Of a stretch of 56,362 nucleotides of DNA, positions 26,355 through 38,478 are shown in pieces. The stretch covers positions 1-56,362 of the forward strand of contig JAJDND010000059.1 in the NCBI GenBank assembly GCA_022340885.1, in the 5' to 3' direction. Positions within the stretch are counted from its first letter, which is position 1. Every line of letters starts with the position of its first letter. The stretch comes from Desulfobacterales bacterium. GTDB taxonomy: Bacteria > Desulfobacterota > Desulfobacteria > Desulfobacterales > UBA11574. A model generated the notes under the pieces. The model did not search any database. It was not told where the DNA came from and worked only from the letters and a program-made list of their open reading frames with translations. A program made the translations under genes and the position numbers.

Positions 26355-27734
26355 ATGAAGACCCCACTCGATGTTTCCGACATCCGTAATTTGATTACGT
26401 CCGGAAACGCCAAATCCCTTAAAACTTACTGCGAATCGAGCCACCCCGTGGTGGTGGCCGAGATGATCTCTTCACTGAACACCGGTGAAGCATGGGACGT
26501 GCTCCGGCATGCCGGCTTTCAGACCCGTTCCGATATCTTCAGTCACCTCAGTGATGAACTTCAAGTGGATATCATCGGTGCATTAGGCCGGGGAGACATC
26601 GCCCGGCTGCTTGCCGATATGCCTCCGGATGATCGTGCGGATGTGTTCAAACTCCTGCCTGAAGACCGGCGTGAAGAGGTTTTGCCCGCCATAGCTCAAG
26701 CCGAGCGGGAAGACATACGCCGTTTGTCCGCCTACAAGGAAGGCACCGCCGGTGCGGTAATGACCTCGGATTATGCGACCCTGCCCCCGGAATTGACGGC
26801 ATCGCAAGCCATCGATCGACTCAGGGAGATCGCGCCGGACCGGGAAACCATCTATTATGCCTATGTGGTGGATGGGCACCGTAAATTGATCGGTTTTATA
26901 TCCTTAAAAGACCTGATTATTGCCCGGAAAGAGGCCCGGATCGGGGAGATCATGCACCGGGACGTGATTTACGCCCGCGTTGAAGATGACCAGGAAGATG
27001 CAGCCCGTAAAATTCAGAAATACGATCTTATCGCCCTGCCGATTATTAACGGAAATGAAGCGCTGGTCGGCATTGTCACACACGATGATGCCCTTGACAT
27101 TATCACCCAGGAACAAACAGAAGATATGGAAAAATTGATGGCGATCTCCGGTCGTCACGAAGCGGCCGCCTACATGAAGACGCCGGTCATTAAGCATTTC
27201 AAAAACAGGGTCTTATGGATCGTAGTACTTGCCTTGTTCGGATTTATATCCGGTGCTATCGTCCAGAAATTCGAAGGGCTGCTGCTGCAATTTGCCATAT
27301 TGGTCACATTTATGCCCATGCTGGCGGATACCGGAGGAAACACCGGGAGTCAATCAGCGACCCTGGTCGTTCGGGCACTGGCTCTTGAAGAAATTACCCA
27401 TAAAGACATCGTGCGAATTCTTTTGAAAGAGGCCCGAATCGGACTGCTTCTCGGCGTATTGCTCGGGGCCATTGCTTATGGACGCGTTCTTTTTTTCGGT
27501 GCGGGGTCTTCCGGACCAGCTGGTTTTTCAATCGGCATGATCGGCGTTGCTGTTTCGGTTGCCCTGACATTGCAAGTGGTCACCGCAACCATCATCGGTG
27601 CGTTACTTCCTCTGTTTGCGGCCAGATTAAAGCTCGATCCTGCCGTAATCGCGAGCCCGGCGTTGACGACCGTTGTCGACATCACCGGTCTGCTTATTTT
27701 TTTTATGACGGCCAGGATCATATTAAATATTTGA
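26355..27734 (+). CDS. mgtE: Magnesium transporter MgtE
   Basis: This 459-residue Mg2+ channel has the full MgtE layout. The cytosolic N domain comes first (residues ~1-130, with repeated LLADMPPDDRADVFKLLP-type helices). Two CBS domains follow (~140-255, including MTSDYATLPPELTASQA and MHRDVIYARVEDDQ), then a plug helix and five transmembrane segments from ~285. The ATG follows AGAGGTGAG. It stands immediately before the first fluoride riboswitch promoter. Mg2+ and fluoride form complexes in cells, so the neighbourhood may be functional. Confidence 0.94.
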   Translation: MKTPLDVSDIRNLITSGNAKSLKTYCESSHPVVVAEMISSLNTGEAWDVLRHAGFQTRSDIFSHLSDELQVDIIGALGRGDIARLLADMPPDDRADVFKLLPEDRREEVLPAIAQAEREDIRRLSAYKEGTAGAVMTSDYATLPPELTASQAIDRLREIAPDRETIYYAYVVDGHRKLIGFISLKDLIIARKEARIGEIMHRDVIYARVEDDQEDAARKIQKYDLIALPIINGNEALVGIVTHDDALDIITQEQTEDMEKLMAISGRHEAAAYMKTPVIKHFKNRVLWIVVLALFGFISGAIVQKFEGLLLQFAILVTFMPMLADTGGNTGSQSATLVVRALALEEITHKDIVRILLKEARIGLLLGVLLGAIAYGRVLFFGAGSSGPAGFSIGMIGVAVSVALTLQVVTATIIGALLPLFAARLKLDPAVIASPALTTVVDITGLLIFFMTARIILNI

Positions 27735-27736
27735 GA

Positions 27737-27766
27737 TTGACAAAAATACGGTATAGATTGTATTAT
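27737..27766 (+). promoter_or_regulatory. Promoter of fluoride riboswitch 1
   Basis: TTGACA at 27737-27742 and TATTAT at 27761-27766 are separated by 18 bases. This is a good sigma-70-type promoter that starts 3 bases after the mgtE stop. Transcription would begin near 27773, about 15 bases before the aptamer. Confidence 0.65.
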
Positions 27767-27785
27767 AAATTATTTATATATTGCG

Positions 27786-27870
27786 GAAGGCAATGAAGTC
27801 TGCCTGAATTTTTCATATCTTGCATAGAGGGGATAGAAATGATGACTTCTACTTATAACGGGTAGGAGTT
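27786..27870 (+). ncRNA. Fluoride (crcB-motif) riboswitch 1
   Basis: GGCAATGAAGTCTGCC at 27789-27804 matches the 5' core of the crcB aptamer. The 3' core is ATGATGACTTCTACTT (27839-27854). As in characterised fluoride aptamers, AAGTC in the 5' core can pair with GACTT in the 3' core, and an internal stem forms between (UUUC-A-UAUC with GAUA-GAAA). Immediately after, GACTTCTAC (27844-27852) can instead pair with GTAGGAGTT (27862-27870), the competing fold. The family is known to turn genes on when fluoride is bound. Confidence 0.9.
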
Positions 27871-27879
27871 AATCACCAA

Positions 27880-27960
27880 TATCTGCTTTGCCCTTCGCTG
27901 CAGATACAAACGAGTATAACCCTGCCCGGATTCAAACTGAGCAGGGTTTTTTTGTATCTG
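27880..27960 (+). terminator. Nested terminator of fluoride riboswitch 1
   Basis: AACCCTGC (27918-27925) pairs with GCAGGGTT (27941-27948) and is followed by T7. An outer stem CAGATACAAA (27901-27910) pairs with 27951-27960, perfectly over 10 bp. A rival hairpin TATCTGC (27880-27886) with GCAGATA (27900-27906) overlaps the left outer arm, so two folds are mutually exclusive. It sits between the aptamer and the GTPase start. Confidence 0.75.
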
Positions 27961-28008
27961 TTAGGCCAGCATGTCCAATATATTCTCTACACAGGAGGTG
28001 GCGTCGTC

Positions 28009-29766
28009 ATGGAAACTCGATTTGCTGTGATGAAGGATCGGCTTGTTGGTGTTGTCGACGATCTTTCCAAGATAAACAGCAATAGGGATAAGCGACTTGG
28101 AGAGATAACCGAAAAACTGGCGCTGGAGCAGTTCAACCTGGTGGTAATGGGGCAATTTAAACGCGGAAAGTCCACATTTATCAATGCATTGATCGGCGCT
28201 GAGATCCTTCCGACATCCATTATTCCGCTGACGTCCATCGTCACCATCTTGCGTTACGGTCAAAAAGCCAAGGCTATGGTGCGTTATTTGGATGAGAAAG
28301 AAGAGGAGATCGACCTTCCGGATATTCCGAAATTTGTGACTGAAAAACGAAACCCCAAGAACAAACTGCGCGTCAAAGAAGTGGAAATCCTCTTTCCTTC
28401 GGATTATTTGAAGGACGGGGTGCGGATCATCGACACCCCCGGAGTGGGTTCGGTGTTCAAACATAATACGGATGTGGCCTATGCGTATCTGCCCTACGTC
28501 GATGCCGGTGTCTTTATCGTTACGCCGGACCCGCCGCTGGGAGAGGCCGAGCATCGATTTTTAACGGAAGTCCGGGAGCATGCCGACAAATTTATTTTTG
28601 TATTAAACAAAACCGACCTTGTGGAAGCGTCGGATTTAAGCGAATCCATGGATTTCACCACCAATCTTATACAAGAAGATCTCGGGCAATCCGTCAATCT
28701 CTATCCGGTTTCGGCCAAATTCGCGCTGTTAGGAAAGCTAAAGGGTGATACGGATAAATTAAGCCAGTCTAATATGTTGGCTTTTGAAAAAGATCTCAAA
28801 GATTTTTTACACCATGAAAAGGGAAAAACCTTTCTTCGTTCGGTCATCGGATCCCTTTTAAAATATACCGCCGATGAAACCATGGCGTATAAGATAGAGC
28901 AGGAAGCCGCCCGACTATCGGTGGAGGAGTTAAAAGCGAAAATCGCCACCTTTGAAAAATATGCCGAGACTGCTCAAAAGGATCGGGATCGCCAGAATTT
29001 TATTTTAGAAGGACATATGAGAAAGCTCCAACAGAAGCTGGATGATAATTTGGCCGGGCTTGCCCAAAAAGATCTGCCGGTTCTTTTGAAAAATATGGAA
29101 GAAAAATTTGCCGAAACAACCGCCCGACACATCAGCAGTCATGAACTTGAAAAGGAAATGGAAGAATTCGTTTTTAACGAAATCATGGTCACATTTAACA
29201 GGGTCAGGCAAAAAGAAGCGGAAAAGATCGCCGGAATTCTTGAGCAAATTTACCTGGATATCGCAAAACGCACCAATGATATCATTGAAAACATCGTAAA
29301 GATGACATCCGACCTGTTCCAGGTGGAGCTCAAACCCTTTACCACTGTTGAAAAACTATCAAAAAAAGGTGAATTTTATTTTTTGTTAAAAGACGATCCG
29401 GGCGCCATCGAACTCATCGGGCTGTCGATCCGTTTTGCCCTGCCGAAATTCATGGCCAAGGGGATTATTTTAAAGCGGATGAAAGATACGGTTTCCGGCC
29501 GATTTGAAAGGCACTGCGGCCGGGTAAGATATGATCTGCTCCGGCGGGTTGAAGACACCAGCAGAAACTTTAAAAAAGCACTGAATGAAAAAATCGACCT
29601 GACCGTTTCCACCATCCGGGAAGCTTTGAACCGAGCGATGGCGCTCAAAGATCAGAGTGAAAAAGAGGTTTCTCAGACGTTGTCCACGCTTTCAGACCGG
29701 TTATCGAATGTCGAAGAAATTCGCAATCAGCTTTATTCTTATCAAAAAGATGTTTCAGCAATGTAA
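28009..29766 (+). CDS. Dynamin-family GTPase under fluoride riboswitch control
   Basis: This is a 585-residue dynamin-like GTPase. G1 is GQFKRGKS (48-55), G2 lies in the TSIIPLTS segment, G3 is DTPG (142-145) and G4 is NKTD (200-203). The C-terminal ~300 residues are long, charged helices with coiled-coil character, and two short hydrophobic patches (LIGLSIRFALPKF) could touch membrane. I start at ATG 28009 because AGGAGG precedes it by about 10 bases; an in-frame start at 27952 lies inside the terminator. Bacterial dynamins remodel or repair membranes; a fluoride-linked role would be new as far as I know. Confidence 0.88.
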   Translation: METRFAVMKDRLVGVVDDLSKINSNRDKRLGEITEKLALEQFNLVVMGQFKRGKSTFINALIGAEILPTSIIPLTSIVTILRYGQKAKAMVRYLDEKEEEIDLPDIPKFVTEKRNPKNKLRVKEVEILFPSDYLKDGVRIIDTPGVGSVFKHNTDVAYAYLPYVDAGVFIVTPDPPLGEAEHRFLTEVREHADKFIFVLNKTDLVEASDLSESMDFTTNLIQEDLGQSVNLYPVSAKFALLGKLKGDTDKLSQSNMLAFEKDLKDFLHHEKGKTFLRSVIGSLLKYTADETMAYKIEQEAARLSVEELKAKIATFEKYAETAQKDRDRQNFILEGHMRKLQQKLDDNLAGLAQKDLPVLLKNMEEKFAETTARHISSHELEKEMEEFVFNEIMVTFNRVRQKEAEKIAGILEQIYLDIAKRTNDIIENIVKMTSDLFQVELKPFTTVEKLSKKGEFYFLLKDDPGAIELIGLSIRFALPKFMAKGIILKRMKDTVSGRFERHCGRVRYDLLRRVEDTSRNFKKALNEKIDLTVSTIREALNRAMALKDQSEKEVSQTLSTLSDRLSNVEEIRNQLYSYQKDVSAM

Positions 29767-29858: not shown

Positions 29859-29869
29859 GCTAAAAAAAT

Positions 29870-29947
29870 ATAAGGCAATGAAGTCTGCCTGAATCGTCAC
29901 CAAGCATTGAGAGACTAATGACTTCTACTTAAAATCGGGTAGAAGTC
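29870..29947 (+). ncRNA. Fluoride (crcB-motif) riboswitch 2
   Basis: GGCAATGAAGTCTGCC (29874-29889) is identical to copy 1. CTAATGACTTCTACTT (29915-29930) is the 3' core. The five-base pairing AAGTC with GACTT is conserved. GACTTCTAC (29920-29928) can fold with the perfectly complementary GTAGAAGTC (29939-29947), giving the off state. The linker between the two cores differs completely from riboswitch 1, so the shared blocks are functional conservation and not recent duplication of the whole leader. Confidence 0.92.
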
Positions 29948-30089: not shown

Positions 30090-31550
30090 ATGGCGGCAAG
30101 TCTTTCTTTGATTATCGTTTTGGGATTACTGGCGGATTATATATTTCAAAAGGTAAAATTACCCGGTTTGGTGGGTATGCTCATCGTGGGAATTTTCGCA
30201 GGACCTTATGTCTTTAATCTCATGGCACCGGATATGATGAGGGTTTCCGCTGATTTTCGAAAAATTGCCTTGATTGTCATTTTGCTCCGCGCCGGATTTG
30301 AGCTGCATAAAGACACCCTGCACCGCGTTGGACGAGCCGCCCTCTTAATGAGCTGTATTCCCGCAATTTTTGAAATCGCGGGTGTCATTCTGGTTGCCCC
30401 GAGATGGCTGCATATCAGCTATGTGGAAGCCGCCATACTTGGTGCGATTTTAGGTGCTGTTTCGCCGGCGGTGGTGGTGCCGTTGATGATTGATTTCATC
30501 GATCGGGGCCGGGGCGCCAAAAAGGGCATTCCCACGCTGCTGCTGGCGGCGTCATCCATTGACGATGTTTTTGTCATTGTTTTGTTTTCGATTTTTTTGG
30601 GCATGTACGGCGGCGGTACGGTCAATATTTGGGCCAAATTGGGAGAAATACCGGTTTCCATTACGCTGGGAATTCTGGTGGGCGTCGTCCCCGGGTATTT
30701 TTTATACCGTCTGTTCACCAAATACGACTGGCGGCCCCCAAAACGGACCCTGATCGTTTTAGGTGTGGCCATCATCTTGACCTGGCTGGAGAAGGAGTGT
30801 GAAAAATGGGTGCCCATTGCCAGTCTTTTAGGGGTCATGGCCATTGGATTTATTATCCTGGAAAAATCCGAACCCATCGCACACTTAATTTCCCAAAAAC
30901 TTAAAAAAGTCTGGGTGTTTGCCGAGCTGCTTCTCTTCGTTCTGGTCGGCGCCCAGGTCAACGTCAAGGTGGCCTGGCATGCCGGGCTTGCCGGTACCCT
31001 CGTCATTTTGGTGGGGCTTTTATTCCGCAGCGTCGGTACCTACCTTTGTCTGATCGGGACACCCTACAGTCTGAAAGAAAGGGTTTTCTGTGTGATATCC
31101 TATATCCCCAAGGCCACTGTCCAGGCGGCCATCGGTGCGGTTCCTTTGGCCGCCGGTGTGGCTGCAGGAGATCTGATTCTTGCCGTTGCCGTCCTCTCCA
31201 TTCTGTTGACCGCACCCCTCGGGGCCATCGGAATTATCATTTCAGGAGAGAAAATTTTGGATTACGGCGAAAGGTCCCCTTACAAATTCAAAGATCTCCG
31301 GACAAAACACGGGCTGCCGCGTGTGGGAGAACGGGTCCGGAGCAAGCAATTCGGTACGGTCTGGAAGATTATCGAAGAAAAGGAAGTATGGATGGACGGG
31401 TCGAACGCACATCGTATTCCCGGCATTTTTGTCAAATATTGGCGCGAAGACAGCACTTCGGGTCCCGGTACCGGGAAAACCATGTCATACCGGTACAGTC
31501 AGAATGATCCGCCTTTTGATAATTATTGGGAAATCCTTTATGACTGGTAA
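30090..31550 (+). CDS. Cation:proton antiporter (CPA-type) under fluoride riboswitch 2
   Basis: This 486-residue membrane protein has about 12 transmembrane segments over residues ~1-395 and a cytosolic tail with a HGLPRVGERVRSKQFGTVWKI region. The motif SSIDD near residue 155 corresponds to the ion-binding Asp-rich helix of CPA-type Na+/H+ or K+/H+ antiporters. The ATG follows AGGAGG by 5 bases. Na+/H+ antiporters are a known class of fluoride-riboswitch target. The transported ion cannot be settled from the sequence; fluoride itself is possible but unproven. Confidence 0.88.
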   Translation: MAASLSLIIVLGLLADYIFQKVKLPGLVGMLIVGIFAGPYVFNLMAPDMMRVSADFRKIALIVILLRAGFELHKDTLHRVGRAALLMSCIPAIFEIAGVILVAPRWLHISYVEAAILGAILGAVSPAVVVPLMIDFIDRGRGAKKGIPTLLLAASSIDDVFVIVLFSIFLGMYGGGTVNIWAKLGEIPVSITLGILVGVVPGYFLYRLFTKYDWRPPKRTLIVLGVAIILTWLEKECEKWVPIASLLGVMAIGFIILEKSEPIAHLISQKLKKVWVFAELLLFVLVGAQVNVKVAWHAGLAGTLVILVGLLFRSVGTYLCLIGTPYSLKERVFCVISYIPKATVQAAIGAVPLAAGVAAGDLILAVAVLSILLTAPLGAIGIIISGEKILDYGERSPYKFKDLRTKHGLPRVGERVRSKQFGTVWKIIEEKEVWMDGSNAHRIPGIFVKYWREDSTSGPGTGKTMSYRYSQNDPPFDNYWEILYDW

Positions 31551-31611: not shown

Positions 31612-32250
31612 ATGATGTATTTTTTCGGGCGAATAAAGGAAATATCGGAAATCATCAATGCCTTAGAGAAAAGAAAACATATCGTCATTACCGGAAATTA
31701 TGGCATCGGCAAAACCGGACTGGCCAAACATCTATCTGACATAACCAAACAAAAATGTCAGTTTGTCTTTGCGGATTTCTCAAAAACGCCGTCAACGGTA
31801 TGTAATGAAATCTTAAGGAAAGTATCCCCAAAAACGCCGCCCGAACATCGTCGCAAATATATGAAATATAAAACGGCAAGATCTCTGATTGCCGAGCTTA
31901 CATTAAAGGACAACCGACAACCTGTCATTGTCCTGGACAATATTTCGGAACTCACTCATCAGAAACTGGCATTTATTCAACGGGTCGTTTTTTCTAAAAA
32001 ACTCCTTATCATTGCAATCACCGAGGGTTTCTTACCGGAACGTGATTTGTTTCAACTTCGGGCGTGCCTGATGCCCTCTCACTTAATCAAACTCGGGAAT
32101 CTCGGCACAAAAGACGCCGTTGATTTCCTTCGACATGCTTCCCGAAAAAACAGCCTGAACTGGTCTGAAACACACATCCGCATGCTGGCCGAGGTAACCG
32201 GAGGTTATCCTCTGGGAATGAAGGAGTTTGTGAAGCGGGAAATTAAATAA
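31612..32250 (+). CDS. Small P-loop ATPase (AAA/STAND type)
   Basis: This 212-residue protein starts FFGRIKEISEI, the typical N-terminal box of AAA-like and STAND ATPases. Walker A is GNYGIGKTG (residues ~29-37) and Walker B is PVIVLDNIS (~103-111). A sensor-type segment (LLIIAITEGFLP) follows. No further domain is attached, so it is probably an isolated ATPase module that works with a partner. ATG 31612 or 31615 both lack a clear Shine-Dalgarno sequence. It lies between the antiporter and the MutS-like pair in one transcription direction. Confidence 0.75.
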   Translation: MMYFFGRIKEISEIINALEKRKHIVITGNYGIGKTGLAKHLSDITKQKCQFVFADFSKTPSTVCNEILRKVSPKTPPEHRRKYMKYKTARSLIAELTLKDNRQPVIVLDNISELTHQKLAFIQRVVFSKKLLIIAITEGFLPERDLFQLRACLMPSHLIKLGNLGTKDAVDFLRHASRKNSLNWSETHIRMLAEVTGGYPLGMKEFVKREIK

Positions 32251-32347
32251 TAAACCGGCGCAGCAGTAAGGCTGATACCGGGCTGATGCGCCATAATCCG
32301 TGATGGGTCTTGGCATTTTGTTTCGTCCCGACAAGGATATCAATCCC

Positions 32348-33883
32348 ATGGATTTTTACAGCATCCTATTTGAAAAAGCCGAAGGAGACATAAAAAAAGA
32401 AATACCTGAAGCGCCCGTCTTTTTTGCTGATTTAAATCTCGATCAAATCATAGACGCCATTACCTCCGGCAAGGAGGAATATCATTTAAAACCTTTCTTT
32501 TATACTTCCCTAAAGGATGCCGGCGCGATCCGATATCGCCAAGAAATAATGCGGGATCTTGAAAACGAGGTTCTCTTCGAGCACATAAAATCATTCGCGG
32601 AAAAAATGCACAACGTTCGCAGGTATCTCGCCTTTGCAGATACGCTGTACTACAAATACCATCAAGAAGGATGGTTTTTAGAGGCCATAGAGATTTATTG
32701 CGAAGCAGTGACTTGCCTACAGCACGATTTAGATCTTGCAGACTTGAAATCGCGCGGCCTTTTGGCTTTTCGTAAATATTTGACGAACTACGCCGTTTCC
32801 CGCCGCTTTACATCCCTTGCGACGGAAACAGAAAAGCTCAAAACTGATCTGGCCGCTGTAAAATATTGTTTGATCATAAAAGGCAACCGCATCAAGGTCC
32901 GCAAATATGAATCTGAAATCGATTACAGCGCAGACGTTGAAAAAACCTTCGAAAGATTCAAACAGGGAGCGGTGAAAGATTACAGGGCCAAACTTCCAAT
33001 GAACTCCGGTATGAACCATGTCGAAGCGAAAATACTCGATTTAGTCGCAAAGTTATATCCCGAGATCTTTTTAAACCTTGATAGTTATTGCGCGAACAAC
33101 CGCAGTTATTTGGACCGAACCATAGACATTTTTGACCGGGAAATACAATTTTACATTGCTTATCTGGAGTATATCGCAAAAATCAAACAAGCAGGATTGA
33201 AATTTTGTTACCCTCAAATCACCGCCGCAAGCAAAGATATACATAATTATGAAGGCTTTGATCTGGCACTGGCCCATAAGCTCATTTCAGAAGAATTGCC
33301 CGTTGTCAGCAATGATTTTTTTCTGAAAGACAAAGAACGCATCATTGTAATCTCCGGACCGAACCAAGGCGGTAAAACCACCTTCGCCCGCACCTTCGGA
33401 CAGTTGCATTATATGGCCGGCCTGGGCTGTCCGGTCCCTGGCAAACAGGCGCGACTCTTTATGTTCGACCAGTTGCTGACGCATTTTGAAAAAGAAGAAA
33501 GCATCAACAACCTCAGAGGCAAGCTCCAGGATGACCTGGTCAGAATTTACGATATTCTGAACCGGGCCACATCGAACAGCATTATCGTCATGAATGAAAT
33601 TTTCACTTCCACAACTTTAAATGACGCGGTTTTTTTAGGGAAAAAGGTTATGGAGGAAATCGTGCAGTTGGATTTGCTGTGCGTCTTTGTAACCTTTATC
33701 GATGAATTGGCATCCCTAAGTGAAAAAACCGTGAGCATGGTCAGCACCATTGTTCCTGAAAACCCGGCATTGAGAACCTATAAAATCGTGAGAAGACCGG
33801 CAGACGGGCTTGCATATGCCATCGCTATTGCCGAAAAACATGGCGTCACTTACGGCCGGTTAAAGGAGCGGCTGACATCATGA
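32348..33883 (+). CDS. MutS-like ATPase, first of a pair
   Basis: This 511-residue protein has the MutS core helices and a C-terminal ABC-type ATPase with Walker A GPNQGGKT (337-344). The signature-like region NLRGKLQDDL and the Walker B region SIIVMNEIFTSTT are also present. It lacks the N-terminal mismatch-recognition domain with the Phe-x-Glu motif of MutS, so it is not classical mismatch repair. I start at ATG 32348, preceded by AAGGA; GTG 32300 or ATG 32303 would add 15-16 residues and have no Shine-Dalgarno. It overlaps the next gene by 4 bases (ATGA). Confidence 0.85.
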   Translation: MDFYSILFEKAEGDIKKEIPEAPVFFADLNLDQIIDAITSGKEEYHLKPFFYTSLKDAGAIRYRQEIMRDLENEVLFEHIKSFAEKMHNVRRYLAFADTLYYKYHQEGWFLEAIEIYCEAVTCLQHDLDLADLKSRGLLAFRKYLTNYAVSRRFTSLATETEKLKTDLAAVKYCLIIKGNRIKVRKYESEIDYSADVEKTFERFKQGAVKDYRAKLPMNSGMNHVEAKILDLVAKLYPEIFLNLDSYCANNRSYLDRTIDIFDREIQFYIAYLEYIAKIKQAGLKFCYPQITAASKDIHNYEGFDLALAHKLISEELPVVSNDFFLKDKERIIVISGPNQGGKTTFARTFGQLHYMAGLGCPVPGKQARLFMFDQLLTHFEKEESINNLRGKLQDDLVRIYDILNRATSNSIIVMNEIFTSTTLNDAVFLGKKVMEEIVQLDLLCVFVTFIDELASLSEKTVSMVSTIVPENPALRTYKIVRRPADGLAYAIAIAEKHGVTYGRLKERLTS

Positions 33884-35388
33884 AAACGTTTCTGATGTAT
33901 AAAGACCGTGATTTTAACCTTCAGCAGAATTTGCCGGCCAATGAAGAAGCACTGATGCAAGACCTGGAACTGGAAACCCTTTTCAATGCCATGGCCCTCG
34001 GTGATGAATTTATATTTGAGGTGGCAAAAAAAGCGGTTATCGGCGCAATGAACACCGATCTTGAAACCATACGGTATCGCCAAGGTATTCTCAAAGACTG
34101 CCTGAAAAATTCAGCCATAGTCAGGGACATCTACCAGATTCCCATAGAATCGATGAAAAATAAAAAAAAACATTGGTATAGTATTTTCAGTTCTTCCCCC
34201 AGTGCGTTACTGGCCAATGCGACAGAGCTGATGCAGATGTTTGTGGGCCTGCTTATAAAACTTAAGAATATCGCCGATGAAAACGCAGATAAATTTGAGT
34301 CGGAAGGATTTGCGAGGTTTTTTGCAATGATTCGCAAAGAACTTGAAGATGAGTACATCGAAGACATTCAAGATCATTTGAGAGAGCTGAAATTTCGCGA
34401 AGGCGTCTTGATCAGCGCTGAACTGGGGGAAGGCAATGAAGGCAACGGTTATATGCTCCGCAAAGCCATTGAGAAAAAACAGCGTTGGATAAAACGGGTT
34501 CTGGTCAAAAAACCGCCGGTCTATTCTTTTTCCATCCATCCTCGAGATGAAGCCGGCGCCAGGGCGCTGTCGGAATTAAAGACGAGAGGGATCAATCTGG
34601 CAGCCAACGCACTGGGCCAGTCCGCTGATCACATCGACAACTTTTTTAAAATGCTGCAGGTCGAGCTGGCTTTTTATATCGGCTGTTTGAATTTATATGA
34701 ACAGCTTGAACAAATAGATGAGCCCATATCCTTTCCCCGGCCGGCAACTCTCGATGAACGCAGACATTTTTCCCATGGCTTATACGATGTCTGTCTGGCC
34801 TTGACCATGAAACAAAAAATCATCGGCAATGATGTGAACGCCGACGATAAAGACCTCGTCATCATCACCGGCGCCAACCAGGGTGGCAAATCGACTTTTT
34901 TACGAAGCATGGGCTTGGCGCAATTGATGATGCAGTGCGGGATGTTTGTGCCGGCAGAGTTCTTTTGTTCCAATATTTGTGATGGCCTTTTCACACATTA
35001 TCAACGGGAAGAAGACGCTGCCATGGAAAGCGGCAAACTCGATGAAGAACTTGTCAGAATGAGTGTTATCGCAGACAATATAAGGGATAATTCTCTGTTG
35101 TTGTTTAATGAATCATTTGCCGCGACAAACGAGAGAGAAGGCTCGGAAATTGCGCGGCAGATAACCCGCGCATTGGTAGAAAAGCGCATCAAAGTCTTCT
35201 TTGTCACACACCTTTATGAATTCGCCCATGCGCTTTACAAGAAAGATATGGAAAACACCATTTTTCTTAGGGCCGAAAGGCAAGCCGACGGCACCCGCAC
35301 CTTTAAAGTCGTGGAAGGCGCACCATTGGAAACCAGCTACGGAGAAGATCTGTATCGGGCGATTTGGTTTGACAGGGACTCATCATGA
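33880..35388 (+). CDS. MutS-like ATPase, second of a pair
   Basis: This 502-residue paralogue of the preceding gene starts MKTFLMYKDRDFNLQQNLP. Walker A is GANQGGKS (331-338) and the Walker B region is SLLLFNESFAATNEREGSEIA. The helical lever region (~50-310) is MutS-like, but there is no mismatch-binding domain. The four-base overlap with the first copy predicts a heterodimer, in the same way that MutS dimers share ATP sites. A MutS-related class is among the fluoride-riboswitch-linked genes as I remember the literature. Confidence 0.85.
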   Translation: MKTFLMYKDRDFNLQQNLPANEEALMQDLELETLFNAMALGDEFIFEVAKKAVIGAMNTDLETIRYRQGILKDCLKNSAIVRDIYQIPIESMKNKKKHWYSIFSSSPSALLANATELMQMFVGLLIKLKNIADENADKFESEGFARFFAMIRKELEDEYIEDIQDHLRELKFREGVLISAELGEGNEGNGYMLRKAIEKKQRWIKRVLVKKPPVYSFSIHPRDEAGARALSELKTRGINLAANALGQSADHIDNFFKMLQVELAFYIGCLNLYEQLEQIDEPISFPRPATLDERRHFSHGLYDVCLALTMKQKIIGNDVNADDKDLVIITGANQGGKSTFLRSMGLAQLMMQCGMFVPAEFFCSNICDGLFTHYQREEDAAMESGKLDEELVRMSVIADNIRDNSLLLFNESFAATNEREGSEIARQITRALVEKRIKVFFVTHLYEFAHALYKKDMENTIFLRAERQADGTRTFKVVEGAPLETSYGEDLYRAIWFDRDSS

Positions 35389-35409: not shown

Positions 35410-36696
35410 TCAACCTTCCTTGATAATTTGAATTCTGGCCGCCGGAGGTGTTTTGGCCATTAATAACGTGCCGGCCAACCCCACGATAACGGCGTACCCA
35501 AAGCCCCATTTCGGGCTTACGGCCGTCCATAATGCACCGACGATAATACTGGACGCAAAATCTCCTATGCCGTTGATGGTGCCCAAAAGCCCAAAGGCTG
35601 TTCCGGCAATGGAATCATCCACATAATCTCGGACCGCCACCGCTTCCATGGTATCCTCCCAGGCAATAAATACGCCGGCCAGGGCAAAACAAAGTGCGAA
35701 CCACGGCACTGAAGAAAAGGCAAAAAAGAATCCGATGAATGTTATAACCGCAACGGCATACCCGGCCGCCAAATAACGGGTTCTTGAAAATCGATGGCTC
35801 AATGCCCCTATGGGATAAGATGCCGCTGCATACACAATGTTTCTTAAGGTATATAGCAGCGCGGCGAGTTTCATGGCCTTCAAAAGGCCGATATTAGGAG
35901 CCAGGACCGTCGTCGTCCGAAGAATCATCAAGGTCGGAGCAAAATCGGCCATTCCGAAAACGCCTACAGCAAGAAGAAATATGCGATACTGCTTTGGCAT
36001 CGCTCTGATTACACCGGTAAACCGGAGCCCGTGATTGGGTGATCGGCGCTTTTCTTTCACCAGAAATGCCATGGAGGCCACGGACAGTATTCCGGGCACC
36101 AGTGTCAGAAGAAAGATGGCTCTGAAATTTTGACCTGCCGCGCCTGATAGAGAAGGGAAAAGATGCTCCGGAAGTTGAGCGATTTCGGGATGAGAAGTGA
36201 TTAAACTCAAAAGCAAGAAGGCGGCAAGCGGTCCTGCAACAGCGCCGGCCGTATCCCCGGCCCTGTGAAAACCAAATGCTTTGGCGCGGTTTTCCTCTGT
36301 TACCGAGTCTGCAAGCATGGCATCTCTGAGGGGGCTCCTTATGCCGCGCCCGAGCCACCCGACAATCCTGCCGGCCAACAGAAGCGGCCATGAAAAGGCA
36401 AAGGCAAAAACCGCTTTGGAAAATCCGGTCAACGCATATCCGATAACCGTCAAATTCTTGCGACTCCCGGTTTTATCTCCCCAATAACCCACGCCGAGCT
36501 TGGAAAAGCTGGAAATGGCATCCGCAGCCCCTTCGATAAATCCCAGGGCCGCAGCCGAAACGCCGATGGTCTGTATGAATTGAGGCAGTACCGCTGTGGC
36601 CATTTCATGACAAAAATCGCTTAAAAAGCTGGTCAGGGCAAAGCCAAAAATATTGCGATTCAGCCATTTCCCTGTAGCCGTCGTCTGCTTTTCCAA
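35410..36696 (-). CDS. Major facilitator superfamily transporter
   Basis: This is a 428-residue MFS protein with about 12 transmembrane segments. The N-terminal half has GFIEGAADAISSFSKLGVGYWGDKTGSRK, the loop 2-3 motif, and the C-terminal half is homologous. It starts with TTG at 36696 after GGAG. It converges on the second MutS-like gene with a 21-base gap and lies 12 bases after the stop of the CPxC-module protein on the same strand, so those two form an operon. The substrate is unknown. Confidence 0.85.
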   Translation of the reverse strand: MEKQTTATGKWLNRNIFGFALTSFLSDFCHEMATAVLPQFIQTIGVSAAALGFIEGAADAISSFSKLGVGYWGDKTGSRKNLTVIGYALTGFSKAVFAFAFSWPLLLAGRIVGWLGRGIRSPLRDAMLADSVTEENRAKAFGFHRAGDTAGAVAGPLAAFLLLSLITSHPEIAQLPEHLFPSLSGAAGQNFRAIFLLTLVPGILSVASMAFLVKEKRRSPNHGLRFTGVIRAMPKQYRIFLLAVGVFGMADFAPTLMILRTTTVLAPNIGLLKAMKLAALLYTLRNIVYAAASYPIGALSHRFSRTRYLAAGYAVAVITFIGFFFAFSSVPWFALCFALAGVFIAWEDTMEAVAVRDYVDDSIAGTAFGLLGTINGIGDFASSIIVGALWTAVSPKWGFGYAVIVGLAGTLLMAKTPPAARIQIIKEG

Positions 36697-36708: not shown

Positions 36709-38160
36709 CTAGTCAAAAATCGGAAAGCCGGAAAATCTTGCAAGGGCCCGGTGCCAGGCCGATTGTTCGCTTCCTTTGATTTCCGGGCGAGCCGTCCAAG
36801 CCGTTTTCCTCATGGTCTCTTCGAGCTCCCACTCCAGGAGCGCCAGCTTGGCCGATTCAACCCTGATTAAAAATCCGGCAAGTTCATTTGAAGGCCGCAT
36901 GTCAAGCGCATCGACGAAATGTTTGATGCACAATCCATAGCCGTTTTCAAAATCAATACGGTATCGACGCTCTTGAAGCAATGCAAAAAGTAGATTCAGC
37001 CCCCGGGTTTTTGACGAATCCGCCCGGCTGCACAGGGGGCAATAAATGGAAGATGTGATGGTTTTTTTCGGGTCGACTTTTATAATGCCTTGATTATATT
37101 TCTTTTCATTTTTCTTTTGTTTCCGGTTTTTCCTCATTTGTTTCAAATGACGTGCGGCATGATTGACTTTTTCTTGAACGGTTCTAAACGCAGCAAATGC
37201 GGCAGCAAATTGGAGTGCTGGATTTCCCAGACGAATGCATGACCAGACATGTGCATTGCAGGTCGGCAGCACATCGTTTATGGCTTCGAAGTTGCCAATA
37301 GACATAGTATTTTTGTCGAGCCAGGAGATCCATTGGCCCAATGAACGGTAACTGTACAGACAAATCGGGCAGCCTGTATTTTTATTTAACGATGAGATAA
37401 AATCTGCAACAGGGTCCCGGCTTTCAGATATTTTGTAATTCCTGGACAAAGAAAAGTGATTGCCCGGATTCTGTTCGCGGCCTATGCTCAGGTTTAATGC
37501 GTGCCGGACCAGCTCTGATTCAGCCTCGAGTTTAATTCCCTGAATTCTAATGGATTCCAGTTTTTTGATTACCGGCAACATCGCTGCTTCATGACTTGAG
37601 AGCAGCCCGGCAAACACTTTTGGCGAGACGCTGTCGGTTAGACTTTTAAAATGAGGAAAACAGAGTAAGCCCGGGCTGCCGTATCTATTCAGGCTATTTT
37701 TATCTTCTATCATTTTTTTAAAAAACCAAAGCGTTCTTTCCGACATTTCTTGATAGGACGAGCAAACCGGACAGGTTGAACGATCTTCAAAGATTAGCCG
37801 AGAATCATTTTTTCTGTCAGACAGATCCGCAGCCATTCGGTTGAGTACTCGTGAAGCGGTATGTCTGTGAACGGCGGTGATTTGTGACGCCCAGTGATTC
37901 TGTCGATCCAGGTATGCACCATGGTTTGCACAGAATCCCAACGCATGCGTCAAAGATTCAAGAAACACCGGTTCATGGTATTTTTCAATGGAAAACCAGG
38001 AAAAATATTTCCGGTCATGGCGTTCGAGAACACTGCACACCGGGCAGCCTTTTTCCCCCAGACGCCTGAATAGTTCCAGCTCGGAGACGTCAAGGTCGTC
38101 TTTTTTGTCTTTCTTTTTACTATCTTGGCTTTTTAGGCGTTTTAAGAATACCATTGTCAT
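36709..38160 (-). CDS. Protein with four CPxC...CxxH modules (DUF6062-like)
   Basis: This 483-residue cytoplasmic protein repeats one module four times. Each has a CP(V/I/L)C followed 45-80 residues later by C-x2-H: CPVC with CANH, CPVC with CFPH, CPIC with CNAH, and CPLC with CIKH. Such units could each bind one metal ion. The modules are separated by helical linkers and a basic segment (RKNRKQKKNEKK). I start at ATG 38160, preceded by AAGG; the longer reading from 38289 has no support. From memory it resembles DUF6062; no function is assigned. Confidence 0.7.
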   Translation of the reverse strand: MTMVFLKRLKSQDSKKKDKKDDLDVSELELFRRLGEKGCPVCSVLERHDRKYFSWFSIEKYHEPVFLESLTHALGFCANHGAYLDRQNHWASQITAVHRHTASRVLNRMAADLSDRKNDSRLIFEDRSTCPVCSSYQEMSERTLWFFKKMIEDKNSLNRYGSPGLLCFPHFKSLTDSVSPKVFAGLLSSHEAAMLPVIKKLESIRIQGIKLEAESELVRHALNLSIGREQNPGNHFSLSRNYKISESRDPVADFISSLNKNTGCPICLYSYRSLGQWISWLDKNTMSIGNFEAINDVLPTCNAHVWSCIRLGNPALQFAAAFAAFRTVQEKVNHAARHLKQMRKNRKQKKNEKKYNQGIIKVDPKKTITSSIYCPLCSRADSSKTRGLNLLFALLQERRYRIDFENGYGLCIKHFVDALDMRPSNELAGFLIRVESAKLALLEWELEETMRKTAWTARPEIKGSEQSAWHRALARFSGFPIFD

Positions 38161-38292
38161 TGAAACCTTAATACCCGTAACCCGCGAGGTGAAACTAAAA
38201 GAAAAAGCATCGTGAATGAAAGTTTTAGGTTTGATCCAAGGGATGCTCGAAGTGAACCGGAACGGCAGATTGCCGGTGCGTTGGATCATTAA

Positions 38293-38377
38293 AAAACTCC
38301 CGCTTTGATGTGTGGCGGGAGTTTTGTGCGGTAGTTTTAATCAAGACTCCCGCCGGGGGATTGAGCATGGCAGGAGT
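38293..38377 (-). terminator. Two tandem related hairpins; terminator of the moaA operon
   Basis: AAAACTCCCGC (38293-38303) pairs perfectly with 38315-38325, and on the minus strand the stem is followed by T6 (38296-38291). A second hairpin, ACTCCCGCC (38346-38354) with GGCAGGAGT (38369-38377), has almost the same arms. The first is a good intrinsic terminator for minus-strand transcripts coming from moaA. The duplicated arm sequence is unusual for plain terminators. Confidence 0.7.
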
Positions 38378-38478
38378 TATCAGCACGTGCGTGCGGTTAA
38401 TCGGTGAACTCCATCACCGTATTTAAATACTTATACGATTTACTTTATTTTATCAAGGGTAATTTAAATTTGATTTTG

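Follow-up and report, generated by a model that had tools for sequence, protein, structure and literature searches.

Fluoride toxicity is usually attributed to inhibited enzymes and to acidification, which cells counter by exporting the ion. As HF the ion gets into the cell and lowers cytoplasmic pH, and effects on the structure and integrity of membranes have also been reported (PMC11139923). In the published fluoride-riboswitch lists that we consulted, which include PMC2864571 and PMC11139923, the listed targets are exporters, Na+/H+ antiporters, pyrophosphatase, haloacid dehalogenases, mutS and formate hydrogen lyase, and no dynamin is named. Among bacterial dynamins, IniA is drug-induced, cuts membranes and is proposed to preserve their integrity (PMC6715688), and DynA gathers in clusters on the stressed membrane (PMC8844932). 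Both the riboswitch class and the dynamin superfamily are already known, and it is the pairing of the two that appears to be unreported: a full-text search of 5.39 million open papers found fluoride, riboswitch and dynamin nowhere together, and crcB, dynamin and fluoride together in just one unrelated cancer paper, with the gene table of Baker 2012, which may list a dynamin, lying outside its scope.

The dynamin-like GTPase and its leader

The window analyzed here is the whole 56,362-nucleotide stretch of DNA. On its forward strand, an open reading frame of 585 amino acids at 28009-29766 starts with ATG at 28009, preceded by the ribosome-binding site AGGAGGT at 27993-27999, and Pfam, AlphaFold2, fold searching and conservation all identify its product as a dynamin-like GTPase. 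The Pfam match is to Dynamin_N (PF00350; 97.2 bits, E 1.4e-27), and the G1 (GQFKRGKST, residues 48-56), G3 (DTPG, residues 142-145) and G4 (NKTD, residues 200-203) motifs are all present. The sequence-only reading had described these three motifs as complete and the C-terminal region as long and helical, and both descriptions held: the key motif residues are invariant or nearly so among 96 relatives, and the C-terminal half consists of long helices in the AlphaFold2 prediction. By its G1-G4 motifs, the product belongs with the dynamin-type GTPase domains.

The AlphaFold2 model (mean pLDDT 81.8) comprises a GTPase domain, a neck and a long stalk, and this predicted shape, taken with structural matches that cover IniA and BDLP1 over nearly their whole length, is that of the helical neck and stalk of bacterial dynamin-like proteins. 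In the alignment of the 96 relatives, the loop joining the stalk helices carries conserved residues L436-F437, V439, L441, F456-Y457-F458 and P479. This stretch, at about residues 436-479, is a good candidate for a membrane-touching tip, although pLDDT falls below 50 at residues 445-464, the least confident part of the model.

The same reading had assigned the gene a separate promoter, aptamer and terminator, and each of these elements was recovered. A promoter-like site, TTGACA-18-TATTAT (27737-27766, forward strand), matches the consensus at 11 of 12 positions and lies just 5′ of the aptamer; because sites of this kind occur at least as often in shuffled sequence, this consensus-based call draws its only support from the high match and the position ahead of the aptamer. 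The fluoride riboswitch aptamer (RF01734; 27780-27858, forward strand) scores 34.4 bits in Rfam (E 7.9e-6) against a gathering score of 34, so that by itself it would count as marginal. P1 pairs 27789-27792 with 27801-27804, and the pseudoknot pairs 27795-27800 with 27844-27849. A model built in this work, R1, gives the aptamer 54.3 bits, with the aptamer itself belonging to the R1 training set.

From the 3′ part of the aptamer onward, three helices compete. A hairpin at 27845-27869 pairs 27845-27852 with 27862-27869 and in doing so ties up five of the six bases in the 3′ strand of the pseudoknot. An antiterminator spanning 27860-27927 pairs 27860-27866 with 27921-27927, and an intrinsic terminator at 27918-27953 (AACCCTGC/GCAGGGTT plus a T-run) pairs 27918-27925 with 27941-27948 directly ahead of its T's, so that the antiterminator strand 27921-27927 overlaps the terminator 5′ arm. 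In partition-function folding, where the docked state was represented by holding the aptamer bases as docked, the hairpin forms with probability 0.999 in the free leader, the terminator with 0.999 free and 0.022 docked, and the antiterminator with 0.978 docked and 0 free. In silico, then, the expression platform and the docked aptamer are mutually exclusive, and since the terminator of the free state gives way to the antiterminator of the docked state, fluoride should switch the dynamin gene on. The leader also folds 4.7 SD more stably than shuffled versions of itself. Before the terminator is completed, the free leader is mixed (antiterminator 0.61), and switching would thus depend on kinetics.

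We therefore arrive at a predicted switch drawn from sequence, folding and conservation. In the absence of fluoride, the hairpin would capture the pseudoknot 3′ strand, and the terminator would halt transcription before the dynamin gene. With fluoride, held as a Mg2+-fluoride complex, the pseudoknot would be locked, and the downstream strand so freed would pair with the terminator 5′ arm and allow the gene to be transcribed. Across 25 aptamers, P1 and the pseudoknot are paired in 100% and 98.7% of cells, respectively, with double changes at three pairs each; this is strong compensatory change, and the pseudoknot column pair 17-74 shows complete A-U/G-C covariation. In 42 of the 54 database relatives analyzed, the pseudoknot strand doubles as the 5′ arm of the terminator; 8 more have a separate terminator, as the dynamin leader does here, and the reverse-strand control gave 9 of 54. 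The score barely above the gathering threshold might be read to mean that the window aptamer is decayed or a chance match, leaving this dynamin outside fluoride control, and we regard this as extremely improbable: the pseudoknot is kept, the terminator and antiterminator pair is intact, and many relatives carry an aptamer at the equivalent position. Fluoride regulation of the dynamin gene is thus well supported as a prediction from these features.

Riboswitch and dynamin in related genomes

Relatives of the dynamin were found by protein alone, and riboswitch positions were asked for afterwards. Relatives at E 1e-20 or better occur in 33 of 340 genomes of the class. We took 24 of these genomes as carriers of the dynamin family, the remainder holding other dynamin-like proteins or, in G117, a dynamin relative without an aptamer nearby. 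Of the 24, 22 carry RF01734, compared with 48 of the other 316 (p 8e-15, which is only a guide because the 24 were chosen by hand with the riboswitch results in view). In 18 of the 24, the riboswitch lies directly upstream of the dynamin gene on the same strand (G000, G003, G026, G032, G043, G048, G078, G108, G128, G132, G176, G218, G234, G252, G256, G288, G291 and G309), and in three it heads the apparent operon (G014, G045 and G111). In G242 and G191, Rfam misses the aptamer and our own model detects a diverged one (36 and 24 bits, respectively), and the dynamin gene of G174 sits at a contig edge. Of the 84 riboswitch sites listed for the class, about 21 fall in dynamin loci. None of 31 loci of other dynamin-like proteins or more distant matches in the same class has a fluoride aptamer in the flanks searched, which reached at most about 1.5 kb either way.

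Two of these loci have features of their own. In the G242 aptamer (loci L051/L091, at about 50-247), which is the one missed by the Rfam model there, the second hairpin is enlarged by an insert longer than 100 bases. The dynamin relative of G191 (loci L056/L092, G191:C170:3840-5540) contains six in-frame TAG codons, which may reflect decay or a recoded TAG.

Beyond the class, relatives in public genomes were retrieved with alignment A2, a single-sequence search with the window protein having matched nothing. Among the best 80 public relatives, 5 of which are genomes already in the class survey, 60 carry an aptamer at 17-302 nt upstream, another 6 carry one at a greater upstream distance on the same strand, and a minority have no riboswitch nearby. 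A relative in the cultured Desulfacinum hydrothermale DSM 13146 (locus L202) has its aptamer 135 nt upstream. Our aptamer model was trained on aptamers at dynamin loci and elsewhere, and Rfam's own model recovers the upstream aptamer in most of 18 distant loci. The 80 records are labeled as Deltaproteobacteria/Desulfobacterota, Desulfurellaceae, Nitrospirae, Actinomycetes, KSB1, Bacteroidetes and several Firmicutes; these are mostly metagenome-assembled genomes, so single taxon labels may be wrong. Mapped onto a tree of 108 proteins, the label for riboswitch presence requires 11 changes compared with 25.5 after shuffling, and because this was a quick tree with weak deep branches, we make no claim of a single origin.

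Chance placement of the riboswitch beside the dynamin was rejected on three counts: the frequency of RF01734 in family genomes (22 of 24) compared with the others (48 of 316), the upstream aptamer in 60 of the 80 relatives from public genomes, and its absence from all 31 other loci. We conclude that the linkage between riboswitch and dynamin is almost certainly real. The sequence-only reading had claimed that this dynamin has its own fluoride riboswitch, had proposed looking for conserved neighborhoods of the two, and had named a lack of riboswitch association in related genomes as grounds for dropping the claim. The aptamer upstream of the window gene and the linkage in related genomes both uphold it: conserved neighborhoods extend across several phyla, and with the pairing conserved in related genomes, those grounds fall away.

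Elsewhere in the survey, locus L142 packs four fluoride riboswitches into 4 kb of one strand (aptamers at 161, 644, 3417 and 3846). A dynamin sub-group (L178, L183 and L191) has no riboswitch within the DNA searched and has a membrane H+-pyrophosphatase gene nearby.

Neighboring genes and the proposed role

The window contains three fluoride riboswitches, at 27780-27858 and 29865-29934 on the forward strand and at 38364-38427 on the reverse strand, and as these are also all that the assembly contains, we consider the region from about 27.7 to 38.4 kb to be a fluoride-response island. Directly 5′ of the dynamin unit, Pfam identifies an MgtE-type Mg2+ transporter (26355-27734, forward strand), and our neighbor survey finds MgtE near the dynamin in other loci as well. 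The second riboswitch (42.3 bits) precedes an operon on the forward strand that begins with a Na+/H+ exchanger-family antiporter (30090-31550; Pfam 162.6 bits) and continues, by Pfam, in the same gene run with an AAA/STAND-like ATPase (31612-32250), followed by two MutS domain V proteins (32300-33883 and 33880-35388). The third riboswitch (54.5 bits) stands ahead of a DUF6062 protein (36709-38289) and an MFS carrier (35410-36696), both reverse strand and identified by Pfam. The antiporter leader has the same three mutually exclusive helices as the dynamin leader: before terminator completion, its antiterminator forms with probability 0.995 docked compared with 0.009 free, and in the finished docked leader the terminator still stands at 0.643.

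The MFS group at 35410-36696 recurs beside fluoride dynamins in 21 loci and does not appear in the published target lists that we consulted, and its members are candidate fluoride or proton transporters. MutS pairs also occur near some dynamins that have no riboswitch, and a full-text literature search found no report of a fluoride riboswitch with MutS and antiporter together.

The genes found repeatedly near the dynamin encode Na+/H+ antiporters, MFS carriers, Usp, MgtE, enolase, CrcB, DUF190, histidine phosphatase, H+-pyrophosphatase and MutS. Genes for antiporters and pyrophosphatase (PMC11139923), as well as mutS (PMC2864571), are already established as targets of fluoride riboswitches. 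The exporter Fluc/CrcB is rarer where the dynamin is present, both in the class as a whole (4 of 24 genomes compared with 186 of the remaining 316; p 6e-5) and among genomes that have a riboswitch (4 of 22 with the dynamin compared with 27 of 48 without; p 0.004), both p values being too small in view of relatedness among the genomes and the incompleteness of some. The tendency also shows in genomes with good assemblies, G026 and G043 among them. No Fluc/CrcB was found in the 89% complete assembly of the window genome (G000), which has three CLC proteins, and in the wider public set CrcB does adjoin the dynamin at some loci. The dynamin may be part of a program that matters most to cells without Fluc.

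Our favored reading, which we hold to be more probable than not in its full form, is that this fluoride-inducible dynamin-like protein, a member of a widespread family usually under fluoride-riboswitch control, guards the membrane. The protein would likely attach by its stalk tip to the inner side of the cell membrane, assemble with itself, and spend GTP on reshaping, sealing or cutting membrane that has been damaged. The membrane would thereby stay tight against protons and HF, with the co-regulated antiporters restoring pH. For this membrane step we draw on the fold, on conservation in the active site and the tip, on the neighbors, and on the precedents IniA and DynA. Acidification by HF, the reported membrane changes, the fluoride-response neighbors and those precedents together favor membrane maintenance under fluoride and acid stress, and a link of the dynamin to membrane remodeling is plausible from the predicted fold and the conserved aromatic stalk tip.

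In combination with MgF3- or AlF4-, GDP imitates the transition state and is able to lock dynamins, which raises a different possibility, that fluoride poisons the GTPase itself and the cell makes more of it in replacement, as perhaps for enolase or pyrophosphatase. Enolase, histidine phosphatase and pyrophosphatase genes do lie in the same loci, the titles of dynamin-family structures include some solved with GDP.AlF4, and overexpression that offsets inhibition has been discussed for phosphoryl-transfer enzymes (PMC11139923). However, other dynamin-like proteins in related genomes lack such a riboswitch, many GTPases would be poisoned equally, and this dynamin has no apparent housekeeping need because most genomes of the class are without it. 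We consider replacement of a poisoned target improbable.

The transporter genes allow another role, in which the dynamin would cluster, insert or regulate the co-regulated antiporter, MFS or Mg2+ carriers instead of repairing membrane. An antiporter, MFS or MgtE gene adjoins the dynamin in many loci, sometimes as the very next gene, but the partner family varies from locus to locus, many loci show none within the DNA searched, and we know of no dynamin that acts as a helper of transporters, so this role, too, seems unlikely.

If membrane guarding is what the dynamin does, the fact that its riboswitch link is largely kept across phyla would mean that membrane damage or shape is part of the fluoride problem, and that the fluoride response has an unreported membrane arm. 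For most bacterial dynamins no physiological trigger is established, and the group would gain a defined small-ion inducer, which makes function directly testable. More tentatively, a dynamin family dedicated to fluoride over several phyla might form the core of a tolerance program that operates without Fluc or replaces it, combining membrane remodeling with cation/proton antiport and the MFS carrier to protect cells unable to vent the ion through Fluc. This offers a hint of how bacteria without Fluc might cope and bears on engineering microbes for the degradation of organofluorine compounds.

Comparison with known dynamins and fluoride riboswitches

In the fold search, IniA is among the best near full-length partners of the window protein (Z 22.3 over 511 residues), and BDLP1 also matches near full length (Z 19.3 over 554 residues). 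Fragments of mitofusin/Fzo1 score above both, but over shorter stretches; a closer kinship to mitofusin or EHD was rejected, and these matches were taken to reflect the common dynamin fold. No NCBIfam equivalog was found for the window dynamin: the DynA equivalog NF052648 (1187 positions) gives 73.3 bits against a cut-off of 1600, and the CrfC equivalog NF007368 gives 28 bits against 1146.

PADLOC reports LeoA at 57 bits and LeoBC at 45 bits over residues 16-583, neither having a curated cut-off, and the window holds no second dynamin gene adjoining 28009-29766. From the PADLOC matches one could argue for a Leo-like defense dynamin whose fluoride regulation is merely incidental. The scores are modest, as expected between distant dynamin-like proteins, and the neighbors are fluoride-response genes. 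We regard a defense function as very unlikely, and an anti-phage role was set aside on the PADLOC scores and the neighbor genes.

DynA and LeoA/LeoBC are related to the window protein as bacterial dynamin-like proteins, with the LeoBC profile covering nearly its full length, but they score weakly against it and occur in another genetic setting. BDLP1 gives the best Foldseek E-value, near full length, and is also the best sequence match in the PDB, although identity is only about 17% and, to our knowledge, BDLP1 has no link to fluoride. The mycobacterial IniA shares the fold over most of its length and is a single dynamin induced by chemical stress, as is predicted of the window protein; it differs in its 18% identity to the window dynamin, in its inducers, which are isoniazid and other tuberculosis drugs, and in having no fluoride riboswitch. 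The leader, for its part, agrees with the fluoride riboswitch class (crcB motif, RF01734) in its above-gathering aptamer, its P1 and pseudoknot, and its terminator overlap as described (PMC2864571), and differs from that class in its target, which here is a dynamin gene.
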